Source: an uncultured Bacilli bacterium
Lineage (GTDB): Bacteria; Bacillota_I; Bacilli_A; RF39; UBA660
Length of the DNA stretch: 40,337 nucleotides
Reading direction: 5' to 3'
NCBI GenBank assembly: GCA_947626655.1
Contig: CANQTA010000008.1
Location: 1-40,337, forward strand
A program made the translations under genes and the position numbers. Positions 7,082 through 40,337 of this stretch are shown here, in pieces (within the stretch, counting starts at the first letter, position 1; each line of letters opens with the position of its first letter). The notes under the pieces are model-generated. The model was given only the letters and a program-made list of their open reading frames with translations. It searched no databases and had not been told where the DNA came from.

Positions 7082-7110
7082 TTGACACCAAACATAGTAA
7101 AAGATATAAT
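7082..7110 (+). promoter_or_regulatory. Perfect-consensus sigma-A promoter of surface cassette 1
   Basis: TTGACA (7082-7087), a 17-base spacer and TATAAT (7105-7110). Transcription should start near 7117, giving a leader of about 70 bases before the ATG at 7186. Confidence 0.9.
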
Positions 7111-7185
7111 TTAGATATGATATGCAAATAATATAAGAATAAAAAAGTATTAAAAAAGCATAATGAGAATAAAGGAAGAGATTAA

Positions 7186-7242
7186 ATGAAAGCCAAACTA
7201 AAATATTTTAGTTTGTTAATACTAATAGTATTAACAAACTAA
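7186..7242 (+). CDS. Truncated signal-peptide leader ORF, cassette 1
   Basis: ATG at 7186 with RBS GGAAG seven bases upstream encodes MKAKLKYFSLLILIVLTN and then stops at TAA 7240-7242, exactly where the second 41-bp unit begins. The peptide has a lysine-rich start and a hydrophobic core, i.e. the first part of a signal peptide. If one 41-bp unit is removed, this ATG reads in frame into the GLUG protein as ...LIVLTIILSNVIFSKKE, a normal secretory signal sequence. I therefore regard it as the true start of the downstream gene, disconnected in the present allele. Confidence 0.75.
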   Translation: MKAKLKYFSLLILIVLTN

Positions 7243-7276
7243 AATATTTTAGTTTGTTAATACTAATAGTATTAAC
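7195..7276 (+). repeat. Two tandem 41-bp palindromic units in a signal-peptide region (cassette 1)
   Basis: Units at 7195-7235 and 7236-7276 are identical. Each is a perfect 20-bp palindrome (AAACTAAAATATTTTAGTTT) joined to a 21-bp palindrome with arms GTTAATACTA/TAGTATTAAC around a single central A. The array starts at codon 4 of the leader. The same array, with paired base changes, occurs at 30470 and 40221. Confidence 0.95.
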
Positions 7277-10115
7277 AATAATATTATCAAATGTAATATT
7301 TTCTAAGAAAGAGAAAGTAATCTTAGATGAAGTAAGTTTATTAAGTGAAGGAAGTAAAGGAACCAGTTTTGCTATGTATTATGAAACTCAACAAGAAGGT
7401 GGAACTTATACTTATGTCGAAAGTGAAGATACAACTTGGCCTACAGATTTAAGATATAATGATAAGAAATCAGGATGTATAGATTATAATGGAAACAAAA
7501 TAGATGGTACTTTAACATATAATAAAGAAAATAATAAAGTAACATTAAGAACTAAAGGTGCTACGTTATGTTATTTATACTTTGATTTAGGAACAGAAGA
7601 AAAACCATATAAAATTCAATATATCGAAGATTTAGTAGATTTAAGTAATAAAGTAAATAAAGGTGAAACAAATGAAGATGCTTATTTTACTTTAGAAAAA
7701 AATTTAGACTTTAAACAAGAAGAAAGTTATAGACAATATGATCGAACCGATTATGGAGATATCAATGGTGTAGGTGGAACAGAACAACTTATAACGGAAC
7801 TTACCAATCCCGAAGGAACAGGCTTTCCACCAATAGGAACAGGAAATACCTTTGATGGTAACTTTAATGGTCAAGAATTTACTTTGAGTAATTTGTATGT
7901 TAATGTCACAGATAAACATGCTGGTTTGTTTGGGTTGGTAGGGATAGCTGGTTCAACAAATACGATAAAGAATTTAACTATAACAGGTAGTGTAAATAAA
8001 AAAGGTACAACAGGACATGCTAGTGGAATAGTAGCATCAAGTAGTGCGAATAGTATAATAATTGATAATGTTCATAATAAAGTAAATGTAACTATAGAAG
8101 GAACAACGCAATATGCAGCAGGGATATTAGGATATAGTGAAAATTCAGCAAAATTTATAAATAGTGATAATAGTGGAAATATAAGTGGTGGAGAAGTAGC
8201 AGCCGGAATAATGGCAAAAACAGAAGGAAAAGGTAAAATAGAAGTAGATACGTGTAATAATACCGGAAACATAACAACAGATAATCTTGATACCGGAGGA
8301 TTATTAGGATATTTAATTGGACCATATACAATAAAGAATAGTAATAATAGAGGAACAATAACAGGATTAAAACATATGGGAGGATTAATAGGTTCAGGAG
8401 GAAAACCATCAACAGGACCAGGAGAAGGAATAATAAATGGAAGTCATAACTATGGAGAGATAGTAAGTAGTGCTCCAACAACAGATGGATACATAGGAGG
8501 GCTAGTAGGTTCAGTACCAGGTAGTAGTAAATTAGAGATATATGATAGTAGTAATGAAGGAAATATAGGAAATGCCTCAGGTTATATAGGAGGAATAGCA
8601 GGTTTTGTAGATACTTTAAAAATGGATAATTGTAGTAATACAGGAGCATTAACAGAAGTTAATAAAAATGTTGGTGGTTTAGTAGGAAATTTAGGAAACA
8701 CAACTGATGATATTGGTACTATAAGTAGAAGTAATAATGAAGGAAATATTATAGCAGGGAATAATGGTATAAATGTCGGTGGCTTAGTAGGAAACACTGG
8801 AGTAACTACAACAATAGAAGAAAGTCATAATTATGGACAAATAAAAGTAGAATACAATGAATTATTAACAAGTTCAAAGTCTATAGGAGGTTTAGTAGGT
8901 TTAACACAGGCAAATGTTACGATAGAAAATAGTACTAATAAAGCAAATATAATTGTTGAATCTAAAACAACTTCAGGAGAAGGGGCAAGTGTTGGAGGGA
9001 TAATAGGAAGAAAGGCAAATCCTGGAACAGTAGGAATATTAACAAATAATTATAATACTGGCAAAATAGACGTAACAGAAACAGGAACTCCTGAAACAAG
9101 AGTAGGCGGGATAGTAGGATGGAAAAGTAATGGCGAATTAACAATAGATAATAATTATAATGAAGGTATAATAAATGTTAATGCTAAAGTTTCAATAAGT
9201 ACAGGTGGTATTGTTGGTGATTCTTGTGCAACATCTGAATCAATATTAATAATAAATAGTTATAATACTGGAGAAATAAATTCGAAAAATACTGACAATT
9301 ATCTAAATCATGTTGGTGGTATAGTAGGACGTCTTATAAATTCTAATTCATCAAGAATAGAAAACAGTTATAATAAAGGTAACATAAATGGTGGTAATAG
9401 AACTGGTGGAATAGTTGGAGTTGTTTCAGGAAATTCAAAAGTAATAATAAATAAATGTTATAATACAGGAAATTTAACCGGTCAAGAAGATACAAAATAT
9501 ACATCTTCAGTTCATGTAGGTGGAATAATATCACATACGTGGAGTAATTCTTTATCTGCAACATCATATATATTAAATTCATATAATACTGGAATATTAA
9601 CATCTAAAGCTCCAAATACTTCAAATACTGTAACTGGAATGGGAGTAGTTAATGATAATGAATCAAGTCCTTCAACATCTGTAGTATTAAATTCATATAA
9701 TTTAGGAAAGATAATATCTATTGAGAATGGAGCTGGTATCAATAGTGTTAGTGTAATTAGTAATTTGAAAATTAATAATGTTTACAATTTAGGCAATTTA
9801 GAAGCTCCTACTAAATATGGAATATTGAGATCTAAAACAACTATAGGTACAGTAGATGTAAAAAACGCTTATTATTTATCAGGGATAAATGGAAGTAATG
9901 TTTCATCTAATGGTACAAATTTATCAATAGATACAAAAAGTATGAGTGAAAGTGAAATAAAATCGCAAAGCTTTGTAGATGTATTAAATAGTAATATAAA
10001 TAATATTGATTTAGGAAGTATAGATTCAGACTTAAAAGATTATACCTTAGTAGATTGGGTAATAGATTCAAATACCGGTTATCCAACATTAAATTATAAT
10101 TTAGAAAGTAACTAG
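7254..10115 (+). CDS. GLUG-repeat surface protein, frame-disconnected from its start (phase-OFF allele)
   Basis: The long frame encodes about 953 residues. The N-terminal part (to about residue 200) includes NTFDGNFNGQEFTLSNLYV, the typical lead-in to GLUG proteins. About 17 GG[IL][IV]G repeats with Asn/Tyr-rich blades follow, ending in LVDWVIDSNTGYPTLNYNL. It is a secreted, probably adhesive beta-repeat protein with no wall anchor seen. The only in-frame start candidate near the 5' end is TTG at 7254, inside the second 41-bp unit and without a ribosome-binding site. The proper ATG and RBS at 7186 are out of frame by two bases. With one unit deleted the protein would gain a full signal peptide. 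It is a paralogue of the gene at 1-2103. Confidence 0.85.
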   Translation: MLILIVLTIILSNVIFSKKEKVILDEVSLLSEGSKGTSFAMYYETQQEGGTYTYVESEDTTWPTDLRYNDKKSGCIDYNGNKIDGTLTYNKENNKVTLRTKGATLCYLYFDLGTEEKPYKIQYIEDLVDLSNKVNKGETNEDAYFTLEKNLDFKQEESYRQYDRTDYGDINGVGGTEQLITELTNPEGTGFPPIGTGNTFDGNFNGQEFTLSNLYVNVTDKHAGLFGLVGIAGSTNTIKNLTITGSVNKKGTTGHASGIVASSSANSIIIDNVHNKVNVTIEGTTQYAAGILGYSENSAKFINSDNSGNISGGEVAAGIMAKTEGKGKIEVDTCNNTGNITTDNLDTGGLLGYLIGPYTIKNSNNRGTITGLKHMGGLIGSGGKPSTGPGEGIINGSHNYGEIVSSAPTTDGYIGGLVGSVPGSSKLEIYDSSNEGNIGNASGYIGGIAGFVDTLKMDNCSNTGALTEVNKNVGGLVGNLGNTTDDIGTISRSNNEGNIIAGNNGINVGGLVGNTGVTTTIEESHNYGQIKVEYNELLTSSKSIGGLVGLTQANVTIENSTNKANIIVESKTTSGEGASVGGIIGRKANPGTVGILTNNYNTGKIDVTETGTPETRVGGIVGWKSNGELTIDNNYNEGIINVNAKVSISTGGIVGDSCATSESILIINSYNTGEINSKNTDNYLNHVGGIVGRLINSNSSRIENSYNKGNINGGNRTGGIVGVVSGNSKVIINKCYNTGNLTGQEDTKYTSSVHVGGIISHTWSNSLSATSYILNSYNTGILTSKAPNTSNTVTGMGVVNDNESSPSTSVVLNSYNLGKIISIENGAGINSVSVISNLKINNVYNLGNLEAPTKYGILRSKTTIGTVDVKNAYYLSGINGSNVSSNGTNLSIDTKSMSESEIKSQSFVDVLNSNINNIDLGSIDSDLKDYTLVDWVIDSNTGYPTLNYNLESN

Positions 10116-27358: not shown

Positions 27359-29887
27359 ATGAAGAGTAATAAGAAAATAATAGTAAGCTTAGTAGGAGTT
27401 TTAATGATGTTATTGTTAATAATAAGTGCAACGTATGCATATTTTAGTGTAACAATAACAGGTGATGGTAGTAAAACTATGATAACAGCAAATACACCTA
27501 AAAAACATTCATTATCAGTAAGTACTTTATATGACGATATACATATTCATGTTGATAATAATGATATGAAACTAGCTAATATAGGAAGATATTATGGAGC
27601 AGTAGATAAAGACAATAGATATGAAAAAACAAAAGAAGAGGGAACTCATAATATAATTGAAGTATCATCCAAAGGAATGGAAAATATCAGATATAGTTGT
27701 AGTGGAGATATCAAAGTAACTTTAGAAAACAAAGATGGAAGTATGGGCAGTGTTTTAGATAAAGAGGATGTACTTTTATATTTAAAAGGCTTAGGCTTAG
27801 ATGAAACCCTAGATTTAAGTACTTTAAAAGTGAATAATACTAAAGTATATAACACAAGTTTTGAAATAGATGGAGATAGTAGTGATTATTTAAGTGCCAT
27901 AGTAGAATTAATTAATAAAGAAAGTTATCAAAATTATATAGCTAATAAAATGTTAAATGTAAGTATTGAAGCTGATAATATGGTATGTCGAGAAAATGGA
28001 ACCTATAAATACTTAGTTAAGTTAAATAAGAATATAAAAGAAAAACAAAATGGAAAGGAAACATCAAAAACAGTATCAATATTTTATGATGACGAAGGAA
28101 TATATCAAAAGATACAAAATATATATTTAGTAGATTACATAAACACATCAAAAGCAATTAAAACATGGGAATTAGGAGATACCGAAAGAGGAACCAAGTT
28201 AGATGAAGTACTGGGCTGGTTAAAAGCAACCCCAGATATAGAAGATAGTTATGATTTGTATATCGGAGCAAATGGACCAATGCAAGCACCAAAAGATATG
28301 AGTTATGCTTTTTATAACTTTATTAATTTAAAAAAGATAACTGGTGATGTTTTAGATACTAGTGAAGTAACAAATATGTCATATTTATTTAGACAAAACA
28401 CAAATTTAACAGATATAAGTGCCTTAAGTAATTGGGATGTATCAAAAGTAACTAATATGGAAAGTGTGTTTGATAGTTCTGGAATTAGTGATATAACTTC
28501 TCTAGCCAATTGGGACGTATCTAATGTTACTACTTTGTGGGGGTTATTTAGTAAATGTACAAATTTAACAGATATAAGTTCTTTAAGCAATTGGGACGTC
28601 TCACATGTAACTGCTATGCCTTCTATATTTAATAGTACTAAAGTAAGTGATTTAACACCCTTAAGTAATTGGGATGTATCAAATGTTACTCTTATGTCAT
28701 ATGTATTTGAAAATAATCGAAATTTAATTAGCTTAATAGGTTTAGAAAATTGGGATGTCTCACATGTGATGAGTATGCAATCTATATTTTATAATACATC
28801 AATAAGTGATTTAACCCCCTTAACAAATTGGGACATGTCTTCTATGAAAGATATGGGAGGTATGTTTTATGGGACATTAATATCAGATTTAAGTCCATTA
28901 ACAAGTTGGAATGTATCTAGTGCTACAAGTATGGGAAATATGTTTTATAATACAAAGATAAATGATTTAACGCCAATAGCTAACTGGAATGTCTCAAAAG
29001 TAACAAATATGAGTAATTTATTTGCATACACATTAATTGATGATATATCGCCATTAAAAAATTGGAATATGTCAAGTATAACAAATATTGGTTCTATGTT
29101 TAATTATACATTAATAGATAATATAGAAGTGCTTTCGAAATGGGATGTCTCTCAAGTAACGAATATGAATAGTTTGTTTCAAGGTACTTTAATAAGCGAT
29201 ATAACACCACTTAAAGATTGGCAAACCTCTAAAGTTACAACTATGGAATCATTATTTAATAATTGTCAAAATTTAGAAGATATAAGTGCATTATTAAATT
29301 GGGATGTATCCAATGTGACTACTACTGGAACAACATATAGTGGAGGTCTATTCTCAGGTACGAAAATAAAAGATTTAAGTCCATTAAAAAATTGGAATGT
29401 TTCAAATATGACTGATATGAGAAGTATGTTTTCAGGTACGCTAATAAGTGATTTAAATCCAATTAGTGGTTGGAATACTCGTAATGCTATAGATATGTCA
29501 GGTATGTTTGCGAATACTCAAATAAGTGATATCGCGCCAATAGCCAATTGGAATGTCTCTCATGTTACAAATTTAGGTACTAATTTTCATACAATACCAG
29601 GTATGTTTCAAAATTGTCGGAATTTAACAAAAGTAGATTTAAGTAGTTGGAATGTTCCAAAATTAACAGATATTTCCAAAATGTTTTCGGGATGTACAAG
29701 TTTAAGTGAATTAAAGTTACCGAAAGCTTCTTATAAAAATATAGTTCCAAATAATTATGTAAGTATTTTTGCAAGTGTTCCAAAAAACATAACAGTATAT
29801 ACAGAGTCATCGCAAGTTCAATGGGTAACAGATAGACTACAAGAAGCTTTAGAAGAAAATAATAATAGTACAGTCATTGCTTATTAA
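27359..29887 (+). CDS. BspA-like (DUF285) repeat surface protein 1
   Basis: An 842-residue secreted protein. The N-terminus has a lysine-rich start, a hydrophobic core and SATYAYFSVT, an arrangement also seen at TasA/CalY-like exported protein starts. Residues about 40-330 are a conserved non-repetitive domain. Residues about 335-780 contain some 16 repeats of about 24-28 residues with consensus NWDVSxVTNMxxMF, the DUF285 (mycoplasma/BspA leucine-rich-like) repeat found in host-binding surface proteins. The end is conserved (ITVYTESSQVQWVTDRLQEA). No LPXTG motif or C-terminal membrane helix is present. It is a paralogue of the gene at 30597, nearly identical in the N-terminal domain but different in the repeats. 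Unlike that copy, it has no 41-bp cassette upstream. Confidence 0.85.
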   Translation: MKSNKKIIVSLVGVLMMLLLIISATYAYFSVTITGDGSKTMITANTPKKHSLSVSTLYDDIHIHVDNNDMKLANIGRYYGAVDKDNRYEKTKEEGTHNIIEVSSKGMENIRYSCSGDIKVTLENKDGSMGSVLDKEDVLLYLKGLGLDETLDLSTLKVNNTKVYNTSFEIDGDSSDYLSAIVELINKESYQNYIANKMLNVSIEADNMVCRENGTYKYLVKLNKNIKEKQNGKETSKTVSIFYDDEGIYQKIQNIYLVDYINTSKAIKTWELGDTERGTKLDEVLGWLKATPDIEDSYDLYIGANGPMQAPKDMSYAFYNFINLKKITGDVLDTSEVTNMSYLFRQNTNLTDISALSNWDVSKVTNMESVFDSSGISDITSLANWDVSNVTTLWGLFSKCTNLTDISSLSNWDVSHVTAMPSIFNSTKVSDLTPLSNWDVSNVTLMSYVFENNRNLISLIGLENWDVSHVMSMQSIFYNTSISDLTPLTNWDMSSMKDMGGMFYGTLISDLSPLTSWNVSSATSMGNMFYNTKINDLTPIANWNVSKVTNMSNLFAYTLIDDISPLKNWNMSSITNIGSMFNYTLIDNIEVLSKWDVSQVTNMNSLFQGTLISDITPLKDWQTSKVTTMESLFNNCQNLEDISALLNWDVSNVTTTGTTYSGGLFSGTKIKDLSPLKNWNVSNMTDMRSMFSGTLISDLNPISGWNTRNAIDMSGMFANTQISDIAPIANWNVSHVTNLGTNFHTIPGMFQNCRNLTKVDLSSWNVPKLTDISKMFSGCTSLSELKLPKASYKNIVPNNYVSIFASVPKNITVYTESSQVQWVTDRLQEALEENNNSTVIAY

Positions 29888-29927: not shown

Positions 29928-30026
29928 TTGCGAAATCTCTAGAGATTTGGTCACTTTTTGGTGCGAAATTTATAGATATTTGGTAAATATTTATTGCGAA
30001 ATCTCTAGAGATTTCGCAATTTGTTT
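29928..30026. repeat. Three tandem 33-bp palindrome-bearing repeats
   Basis: GCGAAAT begins at 29930, 29963 and 29996, an exact 33-bp period. The first and third copies contain CGAAATCTCTAGAGATTT; the middle one is degenerate (CGAAATTTATAGATATTT). A related hairpin sequence occurs in the terminator at 33101-33136. Confidence 0.8.
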
Positions 30027-30460: not shown

Positions 30461-30517
30461 ATGAAAGCCAAACTAAAATATTTTAGTTTGTTAATACCAA
30501 TGGTATTAACAAACTAA
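30461..30517 (+). CDS. Truncated signal-peptide leader ORF, cassette 2
   Basis: ATG at 30461, preceded by a purine-rich leader containing AAAGGAAAAG, encodes MKAKLKYFSLLIPMVLTN and stops at TAA 30515-30517 at the unit junction. With a single 41-bp unit the frame would continue as ...TNILPRLILEERELSL and stop at the TGA at 30598-30600. That TGA overlaps the ATG (30597) of the DUF285 gene, giving translational coupling. Confidence 0.65.
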   Translation: MKAKLKYFSLLIPMVLTN

Positions 30518-30551
30518 AATATTTTAGTTTGTTAATACCATTGGTATTAAC
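30470..30551 (+). repeat. Two tandem 41-bp palindromic units (cassette 2)
   Basis: Units at 30470-30510 and 30511-30551. Each has the 20-bp palindrome AAACTAAAATATTTTAGTTT and a 21-bp palindrome with arms GTTAATACCA/TGGTATTAAC. The central base is A in the first unit and T in the second. Compared with cassette 1 both arms carry matching changes (CTA to CCA, TAG to TGG), so pairing is preserved. Confidence 0.95.
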
Positions 30552-30596
30552 AAATATCTTACCAAGATTAATTCTTGAGGAAAGAGAGCTAAGCTT

Positions 30597-33077
30597 ATGA
30601 AAAATAAGAAAATAATAATAAGCTTAGTAGGAGTATTAATAATGTTATTACTTATAATAAGTGCAACATATGCTTATTTTAGTGTAACAGTTAACGGTAA
30701 TGGTAGTAAATCTATGATAACAGCCAATACTCCAAAAAAACACTCATTATCAGTAAGCACTCTATATGATGATATTCATATTCATGTTGATAACAATGAT
30801 ATGAAACTAGCAAATGTCGGAAGTTATTATGGAGCAGTAGATAAAGACAATCGATATGAAACTGATTTAACAACCGGAACCCATAATATAATCGAAGTAT
30901 CATCAAAGGGTATGGAAAACATCAGATATAGCTGTAGTGGAGATATTAAAGTAACCTTAGAAACTAAAGAAGGCAGTATGGGTAGTGTCTTAGAAAAAGA
31001 AGATGTATTGTTATATTTAAAAGGTTTAGGCTTAGATGAAACATTAGATTTAAGCACTTTAAAAGTGAATAATACCAAAGTATATCAAACTACATTTGAA
31101 ATAGATGGAGATAGTAGCGATTACTTAAGTGCCATAGTAGAATTAATAAATAAAGAAAGTTATCAAAATTATATAGCTAACAAAATGTTAAATGTTAAAA
31201 TAGAAGCCGAGAATATGGTATGTCGAGAAAATGGAACCTATAAATACTTAGTTAAGCTGAATAAATATGTAACAGAAAAACAAAATGGTACAGAAACAAA
31301 TAAAACTGTTTCAATATTTTATGATGACGAAGGAATATATCAAAAGATACAAAATATTTATTTAGTAGATTATATAGACACATCAAAAGCCATTAAGACA
31401 TGGGAATTAGGAGATACCAATAAAGAAACCAAATCAGATGAAGTAATGGGCTGGTTAGAAGAAACTCCAAATGAAAATGATAGTTATGATTTATATATAG
31501 GAGCAAATGGACCAATGCGAGCACCACAAGATATGAGATATGCTTTTTATCAATTTACCAATTTAAAGAAGATAACTGGTAATGCTTTAGATACCAGTGA
31601 AGTAACTAATATGAATAATTTATTTTATCAAGATACAAATTTAACTGATATAAGTGCATTAACTAATTGGAATGTACAAAATGTAACAAATATGAAGTGG
31701 ATGTTTCAAAATTGTACTAATTTAAATGATGTTTCTTCATTAAGTAATTGGAATACTATGAATGTAACAAGTATGTATGGTATATTTTGGGAAAGTGGTA
31801 TAAATGATGTAAGGGCTTTGCAAAATTGGAATACATCTAAATTAACCGATACGGTTAATATGTTTAATAGATGTCGAAATTTAACTGATATTACTTCTCT
31901 AAAAAATTGGGACGTCTCAAATGTAACAGATATGGATCAAATGTTTGTTGGCGATATAAATTTATCAAATATCGATTCATTGGCTAATTGGGATGTTTCT
32001 GAGGTTAAAAATATGAAATCTATGTTTCAAAGTACTCTAATAAGTGATTTAACACCACTAAGTAAATGGGATGTATCTAAAGTCACAAATATAACTTATA
32101 TGTTTTCTGGTACTCAGATAAGTGATATAACACCGCTAGCCAATTGGGATGTCTCACATGTTATTTATATGTCTGGTACATTTAATGACTGCAAAAATTT
32201 AACGGATATATCTCCAATAGCTACTTGGGATACTACATCAGTTACAGATATGAGTAGACTATTTAATAGTACAAAAATAAGCGATTTAACACCAATAAAA
32301 AATTGGAGTATGTCAAATGTGACAACTATTAATTATATGATTGCTGCTACTTTAGTAAAAGATTTAAGTCCAATTGCCAATTGGGATATTTCTAATGTAA
32401 CTAATATTGGTGGTTTTATATGGGGAAATAGTGTAATAAGAGATATATCAGTAATGGGTAATTGGGATGTCTCCAAAGTTACAGATATGAATAGATTATT
32501 TGCAAGTACAAATATATCTGATTTTAGTCCAATAGCCGATTGGAATACTCAAAGTGTGAAGAGTATGTATGCTATGTTTAACAATTGTCCTATAAGTGAT
32601 CTTACTCCACTAAGTAAATGGAAAGTATCTTCAGTAACAGATATGGGAGTTATGTTTAGAGGTTGTACAAATTTAACCGACATAAGTCCAATAGGAAATT
32701 GGGATGTATTTAATGTAACAAATATGGGTGATCGGTATTATGGAGGCATGTTTCAAGATTGTACAGGTTTAACCAAAGTCGATTTAAGTAATTGGAATGT
32801 TCCGAAATTAGAATCGGTATTTGTAATGTTTGCAGGAGATACAAAACTAACAGAATTAAAATTACCTAAAGCTCCCTATAACACAATAACTGGTGTGTTA
32901 GAATATCAAGCTATGTTTGGTGGACCATCTACTTCTCCTACTGGTAATCCAGTTACAGTGGCTTCAGTTTCACCTGACATAACAGTTTATACTGAATCAT
33001 CACAAGTAAAATGGGTAACAGATAGACTGCAAGAAGCCTTAGGTGAAAATAACCATAGTACAGTTTTAACTTACTGA
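30597..33077 (+). CDS. BspA-like (DUF285) repeat surface protein 2
   Basis: An 826-residue secreted protein, paralogue of the gene at 27359. It has the same start (SLVGVLIMLLLIISATYAYF), an almost identical N-terminal domain to about residue 330, then about 15 DUF285 repeats (NWDVSxVTxM) of different sequence and order. The same C-terminal block follows (ITVYTESSQVKWVTDRLQEA). The repeats form a right-handed LRR-like solenoid in relatives that bind host proteins. No wall anchor is seen. The gene lies 79 bases after the stop of the short leader. GAGGAAAG is about 12 bases before its ATG, a rather long spacing that could make it depend on leader translation. Confidence 0.85.
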   Translation: MKNKKIIISLVGVLIMLLLIISATYAYFSVTVNGNGSKSMITANTPKKHSLSVSTLYDDIHIHVDNNDMKLANVGSYYGAVDKDNRYETDLTTGTHNIIEVSSKGMENIRYSCSGDIKVTLETKEGSMGSVLEKEDVLLYLKGLGLDETLDLSTLKVNNTKVYQTTFEIDGDSSDYLSAIVELINKESYQNYIANKMLNVKIEAENMVCRENGTYKYLVKLNKYVTEKQNGTETNKTVSIFYDDEGIYQKIQNIYLVDYIDTSKAIKTWELGDTNKETKSDEVMGWLEETPNENDSYDLYIGANGPMRAPQDMRYAFYQFTNLKKITGNALDTSEVTNMNNLFYQDTNLTDISALTNWNVQNVTNMKWMFQNCTNLNDVSSLSNWNTMNVTSMYGIFWESGINDVRALQNWNTSKLTDTVNMFNRCRNLTDITSLKNWDVSNVTDMDQMFVGDINLSNIDSLANWDVSEVKNMKSMFQSTLISDLTPLSKWDVSKVTNITYMFSGTQISDITPLANWDVSHVIYMSGTFNDCKNLTDISPIATWDTTSVTDMSRLFNSTKISDLTPIKNWSMSNVTTINYMIAATLVKDLSPIANWDISNVTNIGGFIWGNSVIRDISVMGNWDVSKVTDMNRLFASTNISDFSPIADWNTQSVKSMYAMFNNCPISDLTPLSKWKVSSVTDMGVMFRGCTNLTDISPIGNWDVFNVTNMGDRYYGGMFQDCTGLTKVDLSNWNVPKLESVFVMFAGDTKLTELKLPKAPYNTITGVLEYQAMFGGPSTSPTGNPVTVASVSPDITVYTESSQVKWVTDRLQEALGENNHSTVLTY

Positions 33078-40211: not shown

Positions 40212-40268
40212 ATGAAAGCCAAACTAAAATATTTTAGTTTGTTAATACCATTGGTATTAACAAACTAA
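40212..40268 (+). CDS. Truncated signal-peptide leader ORF, cassette 3
   Basis: ATG at 40212 encodes MKAKLKYFSLLIPLVLTN and stops at TAA 40266-40268 at the junction of the two 41-bp units. A single unit would let it continue as ...TNILPRLNLGER to the window end. The sequence after the repeats matches cassette 2 up to its last base, so a third surface gene probably begins just outside the window. Confidence 0.65.
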   Translation: MKAKLKYFSLLIPLVLTN

Positions 40269-40302
40269 AATATTTTAGTTTGTTAATACCATTGGTATTA
40301 AC
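40221..40302 (+). repeat. Two tandem 41-bp palindromic units (cassette 3)
   Basis: Units at 40221-40261 and 40262-40302 are identical, with the 20-bp palindrome AAACTAAAATATTTTAGTTT and arms GTTAATACCA/TGGTATTAAC around a central T. Position relative to the ATG is the same as in the other two cassettes. Confidence 0.95.
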
Positions 40303-40337
40303 AAATATCTTACCAAGATTAAATCTTGGAGAAAGAG

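Follow-up and report, generated by a model that had tools for sequence, protein, structure and literature searches.

The 40,337-nt stretch of DNA analysed here, named the window (contig CANQTA010000008.1 of an uncultured Bacilli bacterium), includes elements made of 41-bp palindromic units, of which the genome harbors at least 43, located at the 5' ends of surface-protein genes. These elements very probably constitute a multi-locus system of translational phase variation governed by the number of units, in which one unit would be the ON state and two or more units the OFF state. This reading, put forward in the initial annotation for the locus at 7186, is supported in the assembly by the existence of fully assembled loci with one and with two units, by a frame logic that is identical at every testable locus, those with diverged palindromes included, by a second predicted output, translational coupling, that follows the same frame logic, by purifying selection on two-unit genes, by assembly forks located exactly between one- and two-unit sequences, and by the poly-G promoter tracts that congeners have on the same gene family. 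The switch would begin with a promoter, an RBS and a start codon, after which come one or more units, each encoding the positively charged residues and the hydrophobic stretch of a signal sequence. When one unit is present in a locus of the fused type, the signal sequence would be joined to the surface protein; when two or more are present, the 41-nt shift of frame would lead to a stop in the second unit and the gene would be off.

The coordinates of the features of the window are shown in Table 1. The first element was found as initially described: it is an exact 41-bp duplication, extended by three bases, preceded by a promoter, an RBS and the ATG of a short ORF, and the 953-codon frame that follows is out of frame with ATG 7186 when two units are present. 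Reading the locus with one unit does fuse the N-terminus to the surface protein, generating a 962-aa ORF that starts with MKAKLKYFSLLILIVLTIILSNVIFSKKE. The stop codon, on the other hand, had been placed exactly at the unit junction but lies 5 nt into the second copy. The frame of the GLUG protein is open as claimed, while the GLUG label relates to a single weak motif (E 4e-4). The N-terminus had been called a textbook signal peptide; it has the long hydrophobic stretch but no obvious AXA cleavage site, and may therefore act as a signal anchor instead of being cleaved like a textbook signal peptide.

Table 1. Features of the three elements of the window and of their associated genes.
Feature	Position	Strand	Basis or remark
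Promoter, sigma-70-type, of the 7186 switch	TTGACA 7082-7087, 17-nt spacer, TATAAT 7105-7110	+	sequence
RBS AAAGGAAGAG of the 7186 switch	7171-7180	+	sequence
Short ORF of the two-unit (putatively OFF) state, MKAKLKYFSLLILIVLTN then stop	7186-7242, ATG 7186, TAA 7240-7242	+	
Unit 1 of first element	7194-7234; P 7194-7215, Q 7216-7234	+	
Unit 2 of first element	7235-7275; P 7235-7256, Q 7257-7275	+	repeat extends to 7278
Surface protein with GLUG-type repeats	TTG 7254 to 10115	+	953 aa
Leader ORF of second element, two-unit state, MKAKLKYFSLLIPMVLTN then stop	30461-30517	+	
Second element, two units	30469-30554	+	Q centres A then T
Hairpin spanning the DUF285 start codon	arms CTAAGCTTAT 30589-30598, ATAAGCTTAG 30618-30627	+	
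DUF285/BspA-type surface protein, target of second element	30597-33077	+	
Leader ORF of third element, two-unit state	40212-40268	+	
Third element, two units	40220-40305	+	

Tandem Repeats Finder located two further copies of the element, at 30469 and 40220, which the initial annotation had missed and which bring the total of the window to three. If the second element is read with one unit, the TGA of its leader (30598-30600) overlaps the ATG of the DUF285 gene. The last 77 bases of the contig (40261-40337) begin precisely at the last P palindrome of the third element. Nucleotides 29929-30014 include another tandem repeat, with a 33-bp unit present 2.6 times (core TCTCTAGAGA), which is located 3' of an unswitched DUF285 gene at 27359.

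The 41-bp unit is, as had been noticed at 7186, a long double palindrome: a 22-nt palindrome, named P (CAAACTAAAATATTTTAGTTTG), is followed by a 19-nt palindrome, named Q, that has an unpaired centre base. There are six copies of P in the window versus 0.00 expected in shuffled sequences, and 55 matches with up to three mismatches in the genome versus none for the reversed control, which excludes chance. Fifty-three of these matches are full-length exact copies and the two others differ in their first bases only; the Q pattern has 69 matches in the genome. Four forms of P, all perfect palindromes, and seven forms of Q were distinguished, and at each of the eight arm positions that vary between palindrome forms the partner base changes too. 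Only in three loci (L016, L039 and L086) is the symmetry broken: P1 there begins with ACA, while P2 is perfect. Q1 and Q2 of the same two-unit locus differ, if at all, only at the centre base. In five of 23 cases (L020, L025, L038, L086 and the window element at 30469) the two centres are discordant, one being A and the other T, and each time it is Q1 that has the A and Q2 the T. At the RNA level two units fold as a strong hairpin of about -34 kcal/mol. A rival explanation of the elements is that P is a recombinase site for shuffling or inverting DNA between loci. The invariance of P in 53 full-length copies across three gene classes agrees with it, as do the ten tyrosine recombinases and one serine recombinase found in the genome and the flips between A and T at the centre of Q, which resemble an inversion of Q; inversion would yield exactly A/T centre pairs, the constant A-then-T order being left unexplained. 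Nevertheless, other loci have three other P palindromes of the same design, the nearest recombinase match on an element-bearing contig is about 18 kb away, and the flanks include neither a cassette nor an invertible segment, and we consider a recombinase site improbable.

The elements were counted from the stretches read around P and Q matches in the 1.48-Mb genome (84 contigs), and their number is a lower bound, as those in sequence absent from the assembly would be missed. A start codon precedes the element at a fixed distance wherever the promoter side was read; a dispersed palindromic mobile element, which had been another candidate, was rejected for this reason. In class A the element belongs to a leader located ahead of a DUF285/BspA gene. 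The elements of the remaining classes are fused to the gene, those of class B to a GLUG-type family, while class C is characterized by a Q of the TTGATAC-N-GTATCAA type and class D by other P sequences. Both flanks were assembled for 27 elements. Two units are present in 23 of them, a single unit in four (C28:5106, C42:12718, C53:9346 and C80:614), and three units in none. Members with one unit and members with two are found in each of classes A, B and D (C1:64924 and C42 for the latter). At every testable locus one unit leaves an open route. In the fused loci it opens from about 220 up to 962 codons, contig ends truncating the shortest of these, and in class A the product is a 32-aa leader with a TGA that overlaps the gene's ATG (13 of 13 DUF285/BspA loci), with a spacer of exactly 37 nt in all 13. 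With two or three units there is a stop at codon 19 or 25, again at every testable locus. Since two units are the clear majority, at a given moment most such genes would be OFF, which is a point against the switch reading. Some paralogues of the switched genes (L081-L085) lack P, and have their own promoters and an apparently divergent regulator upstream.

Around the ATG, the final codons of the leader (CTAAGCTTAT) can pair with gene codons 8-11 (ATAAGCTTAG) in each of the 13 genes of class A. A similar inner stretch, but not the outer arm, is found in the unswitched DUF285 gene at 27359. We propose that this class is regulated by translational coupling, in which a ribosome reading the one-unit leader would open the start hairpin and halt on the start codon, the leader handing ribosomes to the DUF285 gene at the ATGA overlap. 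RNA folding predicted the same accessibility of the DUF285 start with one and with two units, and for this reason the coupling is proposed to operate via translation and not via refolding.

The frames of the two-unit genes are open over hundreds of codons. The closer two-unit pairs of class B showed dN/dS values of 0.19-0.5 at dS of about 0.16-0.5; the values were 0.24 for the window gene versus C21 and 0.19 for C6 versus C9. Comparisons with the distant class B locus of C34 resulted in 0.67-0.78, and class C pairs, which are more diverged and less informative, in 0.47-1.17. The class B values, obtained for genes in the presumed OFF form, indicate that these genes are not decaying pseudogenes, which contradicts the fixed pseudogene listed in the initial annotation as an alternative for 7186.

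The ends of the contigs provided another line of evidence. The overlap is exactly 77 nt long in the pairs C31/C32, C42/C60 and C75/C80, and the stretch common to the starts of other contig pairs has this same length, from which it follows that the assembler used k = 77. At 13 contig ends, corresponding to 10 loci, the terminal 77-mer ends exactly where the extra unit and the exit into the gene diverge (CAAA in class A, CAA in classes B and C, and CAATA in class D). These 77-mers include 31-33 nt of promoter-side flank and are locus-unique among the stretches read. This is the pattern expected of a de Bruijn assembler if reads of both unit numbers came from one locus, and suggests that both states may occur in the sampled population; switching would be live and reversible. 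Seven further ends, the right end of the window included, carry a 77-mer starting at base 1 of P, the merge point; they are weaker indications because the gene-side flank may be common to paralogues. Contigs C3 and C4 end right after a Q centre base, as though both centre bases were present. The ends of C16, C57 and C79 do not fit the fork pattern, and the element at 7194 has no fork. The fork evidence is drawn from contig ends, and loss of a hairpin unit during PCR or sequencing could mimic a one-unit branch. De Bruijn contig ends can hint at phase variation without raw reads.

These results also bear on the possibility that two units are fixed and that the element is an ordinary cis-regulatory, attenuator-like leader with hairpins, the one-unit copies being chance losses. 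Two units are indeed found in 23 of the 27 spanned loci and form the RNA hairpin mentioned above. However, they strip the fused proteins of their start and signal sequence despite the selection on the coding sequence, one-unit loci occur in three classes, and forks are found at 10 loci, all of which makes a fixed leader decidedly improbable. Ribosomes could also bypass the extra 41 nt, in which case the fused protein would still be made from the two-unit mRNA. As in T4 gene 60, the gap contains a stop and a hairpin and lies between matching codons (PMC11194080), but here it is an exact extra copy of the preceding unit that is missing from the DNA at some loci, and read-through in class A would yield only the 32-aa leader; bypassing, an alternative also raised in the initial annotation, is thus very unlikely. 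An assembly or library artefact at palindromes, suspected in a short-read assembly with k = 77 when PCR can drop a hairpin unit, is scarcely credible considering that the 23 two-unit and four one-unit elements lie in independent flanks, that an 85-nt element fits one short read of usual length, and that neither the frame logic nor the covariation of the arms is of the kind that artefacts produce.

Phase variation by unit number is also in agreement with what was found in the relatives. All 38 genomes of the genus encode the N-terminal domain of the 7186 protein, in up to 52 copies, and 26 of the 38 have a poly-G tract between -35 and -10; no poly-G promoter was found in this genome. Poly-G was present at 21 of the 29 congener loci of the gene family that were read (19 by pattern and two by eye), and a divergent, regulator-like upstream region was found instead at other loci. 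The tracts, mostly of 8-9 G, are located in many surface-protein promoters (e.g., L092-L098, L101-L110 and L115-L120), and many contigs end beside them. Neither P nor Q was found in the 37 congeners, and in 386 family genomes, this one excluded, Q was matched only at single places with two mismatches. A search for P in GTDB contigs returned one match, an unrelated hairpin without Q, and in viral contigs none; no tandem repeat of the same design was found in 232 kb of congener loci. Within the genomes searched the design was found in this species only. This distribution suggests that different hypermutable switches, a poly-G promoter or a palindromic unit, act on one surface-protein family depending on the sister species. 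SbcD was not found over the cut-off in any of the 38 genomes of the genus by a search that matched 13 of 14 control genomes, and its absence may let long palindromes persist.

With respect to the changes in unit number, a unit could be lost by slipped pairing of the two exact copies, aided by a 30-bp hairpin for which two units suffice. Gain from a single unit cannot occur via ordinary slippage, and fold-back copying at Q then P, or recombination between loci, is proposed. Plain slippage gives no explanation for the identity of P in most loci of three types either. A possible, still speculative extension is that the switch is self-regenerating: fold-back copying at the abutting palindromes would yield a second unit from one, the palindrome would double as the signal sequence, the A/T flips at the Q centre would be traces of copying, and the device would replace the poly-G promoters of the congeners. 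If so, the ON state would return to OFF without a second repeat, unlike in a slippage switch.

In Neisseria opa, CTCTT repeats lie within the coding region of the leader peptide, and there too a repeat-number switch in signal-sequence codons of a dispersed surface-protein family sets on or off through the frame (PMC3745409). The unit described here shares with Opa-type repeats its place in the 5' coding region, right after the start codon, and a length, 41 nt, that is not a multiple of 3. Unlike the short and many units of opa, it is a double palindrome present in one or two copies, every number above one would be off whereas opa is on in one frame of three, and a second output is predicted through translational coupling. 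The duplications of the pneumococcal capsule genes cap3A, cap8E and tts (Waite et al. 2001, 2003, cited in PMC4022640) are reportedly also long duplications in an ORF that are associated with phase variation, the single copy being on. In our case, as judged by reading frame only, an exact duplication within the ORF would be off and a single copy on. The pneumococcal duplications reportedly arise at varied places in single genes, whereas here at least 43 loci have a standard palindromic unit, always in the same position. Poly-G tracts in promoter spacers are an established phase-variation device, as in PorA of N. meningitidis (PMC3639595). Such a switch, whose tracts precede the same gene family in the congeners and were not found in promoters of this genome, is transcriptional and based on a homopolymer. 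The PARCEL repeats of DUF285 proteins, members of the same family, likewise consist of coding DNA with palindromes in tandem, but they are imperfect palindromes located in the repeat domain of the protein, while those described here are perfect, encode the signal sequence, and set the frame by their number (PMC2996958). A literature search of incomplete coverage returned no report of a palindromic unit-number switch. The element would add to the known kinds of phase-variation repeats a long, palindromic unit that codes for a signal sequence and is used by dozens of genes, in bacteria with small genomes that belong to a group known here from assemblies only.
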